This document shows, in pieces, positions 309-5,122 of a stretch of DNA of 53,502 bases. Below the pieces are notes generated by a model that was given only the letters and a program-made list of their open reading frames with translations, was not told where the DNA came from and did no database searches. The DNA is from a bacterium (GTDB taxonomy: Bacteria; Actinomycetota; Acidimicrobiia; Spongiisociales; JAENVV01): NCBI GenBank assembly GCA_024641305.1, contig JAHEDI010000025.1:1-53502 (forward strand), written 5' to 3'. Position 1 is the first letter of the stretch. The number at the start of each line of letters is the position of its first letter. Position numbers and translations under genes: made by a program.

Positions 309-1625
<1,317 letters not shown>

Positions 1626-1681: not shown

Positions 1682-2830
1682 ATGACTGATCCAGATACGC
1701 TCCCCAGCGTCACCGAGTTCTATGACTTTCCGGCAGATCTGTTGCCATACAAGTTGCAGAACGGCGAGATGCTGTCACAAATCCGACTTGCGTATCAAAC
1801 GTACGGGCAACCGAACTCCGATCAATCGAACGTCATCCTTTTGTTCCATGCCCTTACCGGAAGCCAGAATCCGGCCGGTATCAATCGGTCGGTCCCCGGC
1901 GTCGACCTATGGAGCGAAGAGTGTCAGGTGGGGTGGTGGCCTGGCTGGATCGGTCCTGGTCGGACCATCGACACGGATCGTTTCTTTGTAGTCTGCGTCA
2001 ACTACCTCGGGGGCTGTTACGGCTCGACAGGTCCGACGTCGATCAACCCTGAGACGGGCGTTCAGTTTGGCGGATCGTTCCCGGAAGTGACCTTTTCGGA
2101 CATCGTCGACACGCAGATGGCATTGCTCGACCACCTCGGGATCAGGAAGCTTCACACGGCGATTGGCCCGTCGGTTGGTGGCATGATGTGTGTGAGCCTG
2201 GCGACCCGGTATCCAGATCGCGTTGAACGGGTGGTGCCGGTTGCGTCCGGTTTGTACACCTCGTCGTTGCAGTTCATCTATAACTTCGAGCAGACCAACG
2301 CCATCTTGAACGACCCAAACTTCAACGGCGGCGACTATTACGATGGGCCCCGCCCTGATCAGGGCCTGGCCCTCGCCAGAATGATCGGGCACAAAACCTT
2401 TGTGTCTCTCGACGCGATGAAATTTCGAGCTCGCGGCGAAGTGACCGACGGGATTGGTCCGGCCGGCTATCAGATGAGATCACCGCTTGAGTCGTACATG
2501 TGGCACCAGGGCCAGAAGTTTCTTCAACGATTCGATGCCAACACCTACGTCAGACTGATGACTGCATGGCAACACTTCGACCTACTCGAAGAAGCCGGTG
2601 CTACGGATATGACGGAGCTGCTCAAACGATCGCGACCTCATCGGTACTTGTTGTTCACGATCGATTCGGATGTTTGCTACTACCCCGAAGAACAGGCACT
2701 CATGCTGGACGCGCTGCGGGAGGCGGGTGTGGCGGCTCGCCGGGTCATCGTCTCGTCGGAAAAGGGCCACGACTCGTTCTTGCTCGAACCTGAGTTGTAT
2801 GCCGACGTTCTTGACGACTTCCTTTCCTAG
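1682..2830 (+). CDS. metX: Homoserine O-acetyltransferase
   Basis: An alpha/beta-hydrolase-fold transferase that acetylates homoserine from acetyl-CoA, the first committed step to methionine. Its 382 residues are the usual length. Visible are NVILLFHALTG, the nucleophile elbow GPSVGGMM (Ser164), an acidic residue in TIDSDVCYYP near 330, and the catalytic His in EKGHDSF near 363. It shares the riboswitch-controlled transcript with metY. The ATG at 1682 has no strong Shine-Dalgarno sequence, so translation may depend on the upstream gene or be weak. Confidence 0.94.
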   Translation: MTDPDTLPSVTEFYDFPADLLPYKLQNGEMLSQIRLAYQTYGQPNSDQSNVILLFHALTGSQNPAGINRSVPGVDLWSEECQVGWWPGWIGPGRTIDTDRFFVVCVNYLGGCYGSTGPTSINPETGVQFGGSFPEVTFSDIVDTQMALLDHLGIRKLHTAIGPSVGGMMCVSLATRYPDRVERVVPVASGLYTSSLQFIYNFEQTNAILNDPNFNGGDYYDGPRPDQGLALARMIGHKTFVSLDAMKFRARGEVTDGIGPAGYQMRSPLESYMWHQGQKFLQRFDANTYVRLMTAWQHFDLLEEAGATDMTELLKRSRPHRYLLFTIDSDVCYYPEEQALMLDALREAGVAARRVIVSSEKGHDSFLLEPELYADVLDDFLS

Positions 2831-2872: not shown

Positions 2873-3304
2873 TTACTGGTTTGGGTCGAGTTCGGCCGCG
2901 CTGCTCCCGAAGTAGTGATGCACCGGTAGGAACTCACCCGTCGCACTGACTGCGGGGGTGTCGACTTCGTATTCGGGCATCCACCATGTGGGTGTGTCGG
3001 GATCTAGATTGGCGTCCAATCCCGCGTAGCGCTCGATTAACGTGAGCGAGCCACCCGCCTTGGCGAGCACAGCCGCGTTCGCGGGCGTATCGATTTCGTA
3101 CTCGGGCAGTATCTCTTGCACGGTGGCCGGTTCGTTCAACACCGGCGCCGGCTCGTTGTTGTTGATGAACACCAAAACCAACGTCGCGATTACGACGGCT
3201 GCGACGATCAGTGCCCAGAATCCTTGCTTGGCCCAGAATGGCTGTGGAGCCACGATATTGGGTGCGCGCTCCAAGACATCAGGCCGATTGTTCAGGACGA
3301 CCAT
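2873..3304 (-). CDS. Single-pass membrane protein, unknown function
   Basis: I do not recognise a family. The 143-residue protein has a short cytoplasmic N-terminus, one hydrophobic segment around residues 29-47 (WALIVAAVVIATLVLVFI), and an acidic extracytoplasmic part rich in Pro and Glu. A short motif occurs twice: PEYEIDTPA and PEYEVDTPA, about 45 residues apart. The start is set at ATG 3304 because AAGGAG lies 7 bases upstream (3312-3317); an upstream in-frame ATG at 3349 lacks such a site. It converges with metX. Confidence 0.65.
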   Translation of the reverse strand: MVVLNNRPDVLERAPNIVAPQPFWAKQGFWALIVAAVVIATLVLVFINNNEPAPVLNEPATVQEILPEYEIDTPANAAVLAKAGGSLTLIERYAGLDANLDPDTPTWWMPEYEVDTPAVSATGEFLPVHHYFGSSAAELDPNQ

Positions 3305-3427
3305 GCCATGTCTCCTTCCGCAGGCTGAGGAGATCGAAGGCCATTTCAAGAAGCCCGGATTCCCCAGCGTCCTCTTGACCTTTAATGGTCTCGCTTATAG
3401 AGCCCACCCGATAGTGACGATCGGCCC

Positions 3428-3664
3428 TTATGGGACGGTGCGCAGGCTCGGCGCGACATCAGATTCATAATCGGCGTGCCGATTTGTCTCCGACTTGGAG
3501 AACACCAGACGGCCATCGACGACAATTTCAAACACGCCGCCCCGCGATGGGATTAGGTGGATATCGTACTTCGGGCCGAACTCGTCGAAGATCGCTTCAG
3601 CCATGCTCACGGCACGGGCAGTGTAGTTTCAGGCCCGGCAGAACTCGATGGTGATGGGAGTCAT
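3428..3664 (-). CDS. selW: SelW/Rdx-family selenoprotein with in-frame UGA (Sec)
   Basis: Read through one UGA (3629-3631) the gene encodes 78 residues with the full Rdx thioredoxin-like fold. A beta strand and redox motif MTPITIEFCRAU-NY open it (Cys9, Sec12), followed by a helix ARAVSMAEAIFDEFG and the strand pair SRGGVFEIVVDGRLVFSK. SelW-family proteins carry CxxC or CxxU exactly here, and the following NYxxRA is typical. Without readthrough only a GTG start at 3610 remains, losing the redox centre. The ATG has no Shine-Dalgarno sequence; a TATGAT box (3673-3678) 8 bases upstream suggests a leaderless transcript. It is divergent from the enoyl-CoA hydratase gene, with start codons 5 bases apart. 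Likely a thiol/selenol redox protein. A recent stop mutation is the alternative. Confidence 0.8.
3600..3619 (-). promoter_or_regulatory. Candidate bacterial SECIS hairpin
   Basis: Ten bases after the UGA, within the coding sequence, GCC-C-GTG (3619-3613) can pair with CAT-GGC (3605-3600) around a 7-base loop CCGTGAG, with one bulged C and one G-T pair. Bacterial SECIS elements are small stem-loops directly behind the Sec UGA that bind SelB. The stem is short and the match is only suggestive. Confidence 0.4.
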
Positions 3665-3669
3665 GGGCA

Positions 3670-4344
3670 GTGATCATAACGACGGAGGGGCGGGTCGGGG
3701 TCATTCGGTTTGATCGGCCCGAGAAGAGGAATGCCTTGACAAGGGCCTCGCTAGTCGCCCTGCCTGCTGCCATCGATCACCTCGTCGAGAGCGGTTCCCG
3801 CGCCATCATCCTCACCGGGTCTGAATCGATCTTTACAGCCGGGGCAGATTTGACGGAGTTATCGTTTAGGGAAGCCGACCTTGACGTCGAAAGCGGGTTG
3901 GCAGCAGCTGCCGACCGGCTTGCCTCGGTCGAGGTTCCGACCTTTGCTGCAATCGAAGGACCCTGTTTGGGAGCCGGGGTCGAATTGGCCACCGCCTGTG
4001 ATGTCCGGGTGGCGGGCCAAGGATCCACCTTCATGATCCCCGCTGCCCGGCTGGGAATCCTCTACCGGCCCGCTGGAGTGGCTCGATTGCTTCGGACGCT
4101 CGGAGCCGAGACAACCCGACGGCTGCTATTGGCGAATGAGACCATCGGCCCCAACGGAATCGCCGGCGTTCTTGTCCCGGATGGCAGTGCGCTTGCAGCG
4201 GCCCGCGAACTTGCCGATCAATCCGCGGGTCTCGTCCCCGGGGCGGTGGCCGCGACCAAACAACTTATGGTGGAGATAGAGACGAGCATCTCGGCCGGGA
4301 TGGATTGGGACGAGGTCAGGCGCCGCCTTCTGGCGGAACGGTGA
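3670..4344 (+). CDS. Enoyl-CoA hydratase/isomerase family protein
   Basis: A crotonase-fold protein of 224 residues, slightly shorter than the usual 250-260 because the C-terminal helices are reduced. It shows VIRFDRPEKRNAL at the N-terminus, the oxyanion-hole segment TAGADLTEL, and GPCLGAGVELATACD. The position where hydratases often have a catalytic Glu reads AARLGILYRP, so the exact reaction is unclear. The GTG start follows GGGAG (3656-3660) by 9 bases; this site lies inside the divergent selW gene. Its last 29 bases overlap the end of the converging DUF3152 gene. Confidence 0.85.
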   Translation: MIITTEGRVGVIRFDRPEKRNALTRASLVALPAAIDHLVESGSRAIILTGSESIFTAGADLTELSFREADLDVESGLAAAADRLASVEVPTFAAIEGPCLGAGVELATACDVRVAGQGSTFMIPAARLGILYRPAGVARLLRTLGAETTRRLLLANETIGPNGIAGVLVPDGSALAAARELADQSAGLVPGAVAATKQLMVEIETSISAGMDWDEVRRRLLAER

Positions 4345-5122
4345 TCTCTGGATCGAGCGGCCAGCCGTTGGGCCAGCATCCGTCGAGGCCTTTGGTTTGT
4401 TGCATCATGACGGGAGCCAGGTCACCGATGCCCGTACAGGCAACGTGCCCGTGTTTGAGTCCATGACCCACCTCATGGTTGATCACATATATCTGATAGC
4501 CCCACAGGTCGTTGGCGTACTCTTCTGTGCCGGTTTCCCAGCGCCACACGTTGATCATGGCCCGATGGGCGTCCCAGCAGGAATAAATTCCTGCAGTGAA
4601 CAGTGGACGGCAGTGCTCATCGGTCGTCGCCGGCGAGGCCAGAGTCACGCGAAATGAGGGTTCGCCGATATCGACCCGTTGGACGGCGAACCCTTCGCGC
4701 CCGCCCCATGACCGGGGATCACTGAGTACCTGATCCACCCGATCGGCGAAACAGGCGGCGTCAATGCCAAGCCCTTCTTCGACCTCCACGATATAGGTCT
4801 TGATAGGGTCGTCGGACGATGGCAGGGTCGAACCTGGCACCACGATCAGAGTTCCAGTCGGTTGGTGCGGAGTGTTGGTTGAACAGGAGGCATCAACGGT
4901 CGGAGTCGGTGGCGGGTCATCGGCAGACGGTTCGACGATCACCTGGGCGGCAGAGGATGGCGTTTCTGCGACCGCCGAAATGGTGGTCACAGAAACGCCG
5001 GACTCCGGAGCCTGGATCCCAAGGCTCGTGTCGGTTCCTAGCCGTGGTACTGCGAATGCCGCGATGAGAGCGATGGTTGCCAGCATGAGAAAGGCTCGGC
5101 GATGGGGAGTGGGGCGGTTCAC
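4316..5122 (-). CDS. DUF3152 family membrane-anchored putative metallopeptidase
   Basis: A 268-residue protein with an N-terminal hydrophobic anchor (AFLMLATIALIAAFAVP, about residues 10-26), a low-complexity linker, and a C-terminal DUF3152 domain. The domain has HEVGHGLKHGH, a zinc-binding HExGH...H metallopeptidase motif, and paired cysteines (SCWDAHRA, HVACTGIG, LDGCWP). DUF3152 is an actinobacterial family presumed to act outside the membrane; its substrate is unknown. The start is a GTG. The 3' end overlaps the enoyl-CoA hydratase gene. Confidence 0.8.
   Translation of the reverse strand: MNRPTPHRRAFLMLATIALIAAFAVPRLGTDTSLGIQAPESGVSVTTISAVAETPSSAAQVIVEPSADDPPPTPTVDASCSTNTPHQPTGTLIVVPGSTLPSSDDPIKTYIVEVEEGLGIDAACFADRVDQVLSDPRSWGGREGFAVQRVDIGEPSFRVTLASPATTDEHCRPLFTAGIYSCWDAHRAMINVWRWETGTEEYANDLWGYQIYVINHEVGHGLKHGHVACTGIGDLAPVMMQQTKGLDGCWPNGWPLDPEITVPPEGGA

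Follow-up and report, generated by a model that had tools for sequence, protein, structure and literature searches.

A SelW-like selenoprotein gene in an Acidimicrobiia genome, with a putative SECIS hairpin in a shifted register

Introduction

SelW-like selenoproteins have been known from bacteria since 2005–2008 and form an abundant family (PMC1794560, PMC2398784). They were found in Symbiobacterium and others (PMC1794560), and SelW-like proteins with a CxxU motif are among the listed prokaryotic selenoprotein families (PMC9312934). The gene described here shares with this bacterial family (PF10262, TIGR02174, NF041051) an N-terminal CxxU, followed by NYxxRA and GGVFEVxVDG within about 80 residues, as well as a UGA followed by an in-frame hairpin. 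A full-text search of the literature for selenoproteins in Acidimicrobiia found nothing relevant.

We analyzed a 53,502-nucleotide stretch of DNA (the window), which is contig C73 of an Acidimicrobiia genome of 3.42 Mb in 93 contigs (97% complete). With very high confidence, we identify in it an intact bacterial SelW-like selenoprotein gene, in which UGA would be decoded as selenocysteine (Sec) by means of SelB and a hairpin. The features of the locus are collected in Table 1.

Table 1. Features of the selW locus and its surroundings, in window coordinates.
Feature	Position	Strand	Details
SelW-like (Rdx family) selenoprotein gene	3428..3664	-	78 codons including one Sec codon; TGA=U translation, PF10262, relatives, predicted fold
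selW start ATG	3664-3662	-	
Cys9 codon, CxxU motif	3638..3640	-	Cys in 31/31 genes; invariant in alignment A2
UGA as selenocysteine (inferred), codon 12, Sec of Cys9-Arg-Ala-Sec12	3629..3631	-	TGA column in relatives, TGC/TGT in Cys forms
Putative bacterial SECIS hairpin	3601..3617	-	6-bp stem CCGUGC/GCAUGG, 5-nt loop CGUGA
selW stop TAA	3430-3428	-	
Putative -10 box TATGAT	3673..3678	-	CGT-TATGAT, TANNNT type; 8 nt before ATG
Enoyl-CoA hydratase-like gene	3670..4344	+	Divergent, not part of the system; GTG start 5 bp from selW ATG
SAM riboswitch RF00162	65-147	+	72.1 bits; ahead of O-acetylhomoserine sulfhydrylase
O-acetylhomoserine sulfhydrylase	312-1625		
metX	1682-2830		

Results

Reading frame, family and predicted fold

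When TGA is translated as Sec (U), the UGA is the sole break in the selW frame, and the product is MTPITIEFCRAUNYTARAVSMAEAIFDEFGPKYDIHLIPSRGGVFEIVVDGRLVFSKSETNRHADYESDVAPSLRTVP, with the motifs CRAU-NYTARAV and GGVFEIVVDG. An earlier note, made from the sequence alone, had proposed that reading through this UGA joins a CxxU motif to an Rdx/SelW domain. The 78-residue frame bears this out, as it matches the Rdx profile PF10262 (E 9.3e-17, 61.4 bits, cut-off 22.6), with residues 4–66 aligned to profile positions 2–65 of 74. The read-through protein also scores over the cut-off of TIGR02174 (CXXU_selWTH, E 1.6e-13). The equivalog NF041051 (SelTWH_Campy) was rejected as an assignment, with 69.7 bits against a curated cut-off of 88, and the protein is filed under the wider family.

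The AlphaFold2 model (pLDDT 95.2) has a strand at residues 2–9, then the CxxU motif, then a helix at residues 15–32. In Foldseek searches, the top matches of the model are the SelW-related structures 2fa8, 2obk, 2p0g and 3dex, followed by MIEN1 and mouse SelW, and then thioredoxins. The protein is thus predicted to have a thioredoxin-like fold, with Cys9-x-x-Sec12 placed just before the first helix. Both Cys9 and residue 12 are invariant in alignment A2. A thiol/selenol redox role would be the expectation for a SelW family member.

As the earlier note had anticipated for ordinary gene calling, the mechanical ORF list holds this frame only from GTG 3610 to 3428 (60 amino acids), and the CxxU motif is lost. 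A genuine shorter protein from GTG 3610, with the UGA as the true stop of a tiny upstream ORF, would be exactly what such a caller yields, but it would lack the first strand and the invariant cysteine. The codons before the UGA are, moreover, conserved in amino acid (Glu at -5, Cys at -3 and Ile/Leu at -6 relative to the UGA, each in 31 of the 31 first-aligned genes), and a conserved -10 box and start codon are located before it. We consider such a protein exceedingly improbable.

Conservation of the UGA

Among 99 related genomes, including the window's own, 54 have an Rdx match. Exactly one TGA is present in each match spanning the active site; a single match has none, and it is truncated at the end of its contig. 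Since a single TGA occurs throughout the Rdx matches of these related genomes, the UGA is not there by chance. In all 50 selW genes that were extracted, it is codon 11 or 12, the start codon lying 10 or 11 codons before it. TGA is also found in 29 of 30 relatives from named genomes, the exception being Cereibacter, which has TGC. The closest named relatives are mostly metagenome-assembled genomes (MAGs) called Acidimicrobiia, and those bearing TGA include MAGs labelled Gemmatimonadota, Planctomycetota, Acidobacteria and Anaerolineales. A search of viral contigs found no relatives of the protein.

In a wider sample of the phylum, Rdx was detected in 56 of 396 genomes, most with one TGA and a minority with none. 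The five TGA-free genomes that the search pattern could read have a cysteine codon, TGC or TGT, at the UGA column; the loci recorded with TGC or TGT are L100–L103, L105 and L068. Such pairing of Cys and Sec forms at one column is what a selenoprotein family would lead one to expect. The comparison also settles what the earlier note had left to an alignment, namely whether column 12 is Cys or Sec: UGA is present throughout the relatives, and Cys forms occur only elsewhere. In two genomes of family f20 (L100 and L101), TGT replaces TGA and the GU of the hairpin loop is gone, while most f20 members have TGA; this is a Sec/Cys exchange within the family, as judged from the sequences.

Another explanation is a Cys-type selW in which UGC or UGU has become UGA, either through a recent nonsense mutation or as an error of sequencing. 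A single base separates the UGA from a cysteine codon, and other actinobacteria do have Cys forms. The earlier note had foreseen this outcome as cysteine codons in relatives and UGA in one strain, but all 50 genes, which come from several families and genera, have the identical UGA; coding is conserved on both sides of it, a covarying hairpin follows, and the whole Sec machinery is present in the genome. With the UGA conserved across the order, a recent mutation or sequencing error is refuted, and we assign it next to no probability.

Selenocysteine machinery

The earlier note's implication that this actinobacterium makes selenocysteine is supported by the genome, in which selA, selB, tRNA-Sec and selD, whose absence would have spoken against a Sec reading, were all located. 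Contig C77 carries selA (E 1e-108; TIGR00474, 425 bits) and, immediately after it, selB (TIGR00475, 353 bits, cut-off 242). Contig C60 carries tRNA-Sec (76.3 bits; identified by ARAGORN as tRNA-SeC with anticodon tca, UCA) and selD (387 bits, E 5e-116). With the genome in 93 contigs, a binning error might in principle have brought in the selenium genes; the agreement of the whole order argues against this. SelA is found in 52 of the 54 Rdx-bearing genomes, compared to 35 of the 45 without Rdx (Fisher p = 0.011). The two Rdx-bearing MAGs without SelA are G005, which is 69% complete, and G086, which is about 90% complete and keeps tRNA-Sec.

Sec-type UGA codons occur in at least three genes of the genome, SelW, SelD and FdhA having been checked. 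The selD gene (G000:C60, L042, 2439-1396, minus strand) has an in-frame UGA in GAGUACK. Its hairpin has 8 bp and a 3-nt loop starting 15 nt from the UGA, just under the published range of 16–37 nt. In fdhA, the in-frame UGA lies in CNRTUHAPSVAGL and is followed by a hairpin with the loop GGUCU. The piece of fdhA that aligns with the first 51 positions of the profile is found on the same strand as the rest but downstream of it (G000:C93, L097); a circular contig, a misjoin or the presence of two genes may account for this.

The UGA of selW might instead be read as Trp or Cys, through near-cognate readthrough or a reassigned code, and the residue itself can be named by mass spectrometry alone. 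TGA nevertheless terminates ordinary genes of the same genome (selD, for example), the genome contains tRNA-Sec, selA, selB and selD, the UGA is followed by a SECIS-type hairpin, and homologues have Cys at this column, as for Cys/Sec pairs. Decoding as Trp or Cys is thus very unlikely. We infer Sec incorporation at codon 12; the UGA of selW is almost certainly read as selenocysteine, giving a small SelW-like redox protein.

A putative SECIS hairpin in a shifted register

The stem of the window hairpin begins 11 nt past the UGA and its loop begins 17 nt past it. Published rules for bacterial SECIS elements specify a stem of 4–16 bp, a loop of 3–9 nt with G in the first two loop bases, and a loop 16–37 nt from the UGA (PMC13188914). 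The hairpin lies within these limits on stem, loop and spacing (6 bp, CGUGA, 17 nt). Folded alone, it shows no unusual stability (z -0.36). The 6-bp stem is also present at the same place in one of the six Cys forms examined, so that the stem is in part a by-product of coding. With the lone hairpin not unusually stable and one Cys form retaining the stem, the case for a SECIS rests on comparison rather than on energy.

We compared the hairpin across the 50 selW genes, which represent 48 distinct sequences. The stem (alignment columns 15–20 with 26–31) is paired in 47–48 of these 48, with compensatory changes from U-A to C-G in six sequences and from C-G to U-A in three. When the partner columns are shifted by 1–3 positions, the share of paired cells falls from 94% to 17–47%. 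Of the 50 genes, 43 use CGU and 7 use CGC for the arginine within the stem, and none of the 48 distinct sequences leaves the third base of this codon unpaired; CGU accounts for about 14% of the remaining arginine codons in these genes. Loop positions 2 and 3 are GU in all 50 genes.

Among other lineages, 15 SelW-like genes have a loop that is mostly [A/G]GU[C/U]U, with GU in 14 of the 15; it starts 21 nt after the UGA, compared to 17 nt in the window's order. The GU of the 50 genes in this order is never at the place used by the other lineages and always 4 nt earlier. The loop being 4 nt nearer the UGA, different codons of the same conserved protein are used. We know of no report of a SECIS shifted in this way.

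Start of the gene and putative promoter

A TANNNT sequence occurs at -14 to -12 from the start codon in 41 of the 50 selW genes, which are related and hence not independent. At the same offset before other ATGs of these loci, it occurs in 11 of 2109 cases (0.5%), and among the long ORFs of the window it is found at 4 of 39 first starts. A Shine-Dalgarno sequence is absent from most of the 50 selW genes of the order, and 8 of the 9 genes that lack TANNNT show a Shine-Dalgarno-like sequence. In Mycobacterium tuberculosis, leaderless mRNAs are widespread, and TANNNT is centred 7–12 bp upstream of the sites at which transcription begins (PMC3898074). With a -10 box just before the start codon, these sequences suggest that the selW mRNA is mostly leaderless in the window's order. 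A literature search for leaderless selenoprotein mRNAs, judged by titles and abstracts, found nothing on point.

Genomic neighborhood

The -10 box of selW lies inside codons of the divergent enoyl-CoA hydratase-like gene, and a possible Shine-Dalgarno sequence of the latter, GGGAG (~3656–3661), lies inside selW codons. The divergent pair is kept in the same-genus relative L074 and absent in L073, also of the genus. A link of selW to the hydratase was dropped, as the hydratase is missing beside selW in L073. A functional link to the upstream methionine genes was likewise dropped, because metX lies close to selW in no loci other than the window and those of two same-genus relatives.

Two further genes on the minus strand are conserved in the genus beside selW, each without an NCBIfam match. 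One (2873-3349) encodes a 158-residue protein with a hydrophobic segment, and the other (4316-5122) a 268-residue protein with an HExxH-like motif.

Discussion

Bacterial SelW-like selenoproteins are already known, and the Acidimicrobiia selW adds one well-supported member, together with two modest new details. We propose that RNA polymerase would start at or beside the selW ATG from the -10 box (3678-3673), and that the ribosome would read 11 codons before meeting the UGA. The hairpin 11 nt further on would then bind SelB carrying Sec-tRNA-Sec, allowing Sec to be inserted without termination. The 78-residue product is predicted to fold like thioredoxin, with Cys9-x-x-Sec12 before the first helix, and, judging from the SelW family, it probably reduces disulfides, peroxides or glutathione adducts of a partner.

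On balance, we favor the view that this lineage of Actinomycetota makes a selenoprotein from a leaderless mRNA whose codon 11 or 12 is the UGA, and that its SECIS has moved 4 nt toward the UGA relative to other lineages, thereby using different codons. If so, SelB can direct decoding on transcripts that lack a leader, and the register of a SECIS can shift while the protein encoded there stays conserved. Both the shifted SECIS and the apparent leaderless expression are relevant to the way SelB locates its hairpin. Where UGA is taken as a stop, gene calling would miss selW or truncate it in many Acidimicrobiia genomes, and selenium use is easily overlooked. The relatives of selW that were found are nearly all from MAGs, so that genome reading is the main route to such knowledge.

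Among described proteins, the Cys-type SelW-related 2fa8 (Agrobacterium) and 3dex (Streptomyces avermitilis SAV_2001) share the fold (TM up to 0.90; 0.80–0.90 for 2fa8 against the SelW model) and the position of the CxxC/CxxU motif. They differ in having Cys aligned with Sec, with a cysteine codon in place of UGA, and in not needing tRNA-Sec. Mammalian selenoprotein W (2npb) likewise belongs to the Rdx family and has the CxxU motif and a thioredoxin-like fold (TM 0.72, sequence E 0.0016). Eukaryotic SECIS elements are located in the 3' UTR; the selW hairpin of the window, unlike that of mammalian selenoprotein W, is inside the coding region. In this respect, it resembles the SECIS of E. coli fdhF, with which it shares an in-frame hairpin right after the UGA and a small GU loop, and presumably a similar spacing. 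The stem sequences of the two are unrelated, however, and no bulged U was identified in the window hairpin.
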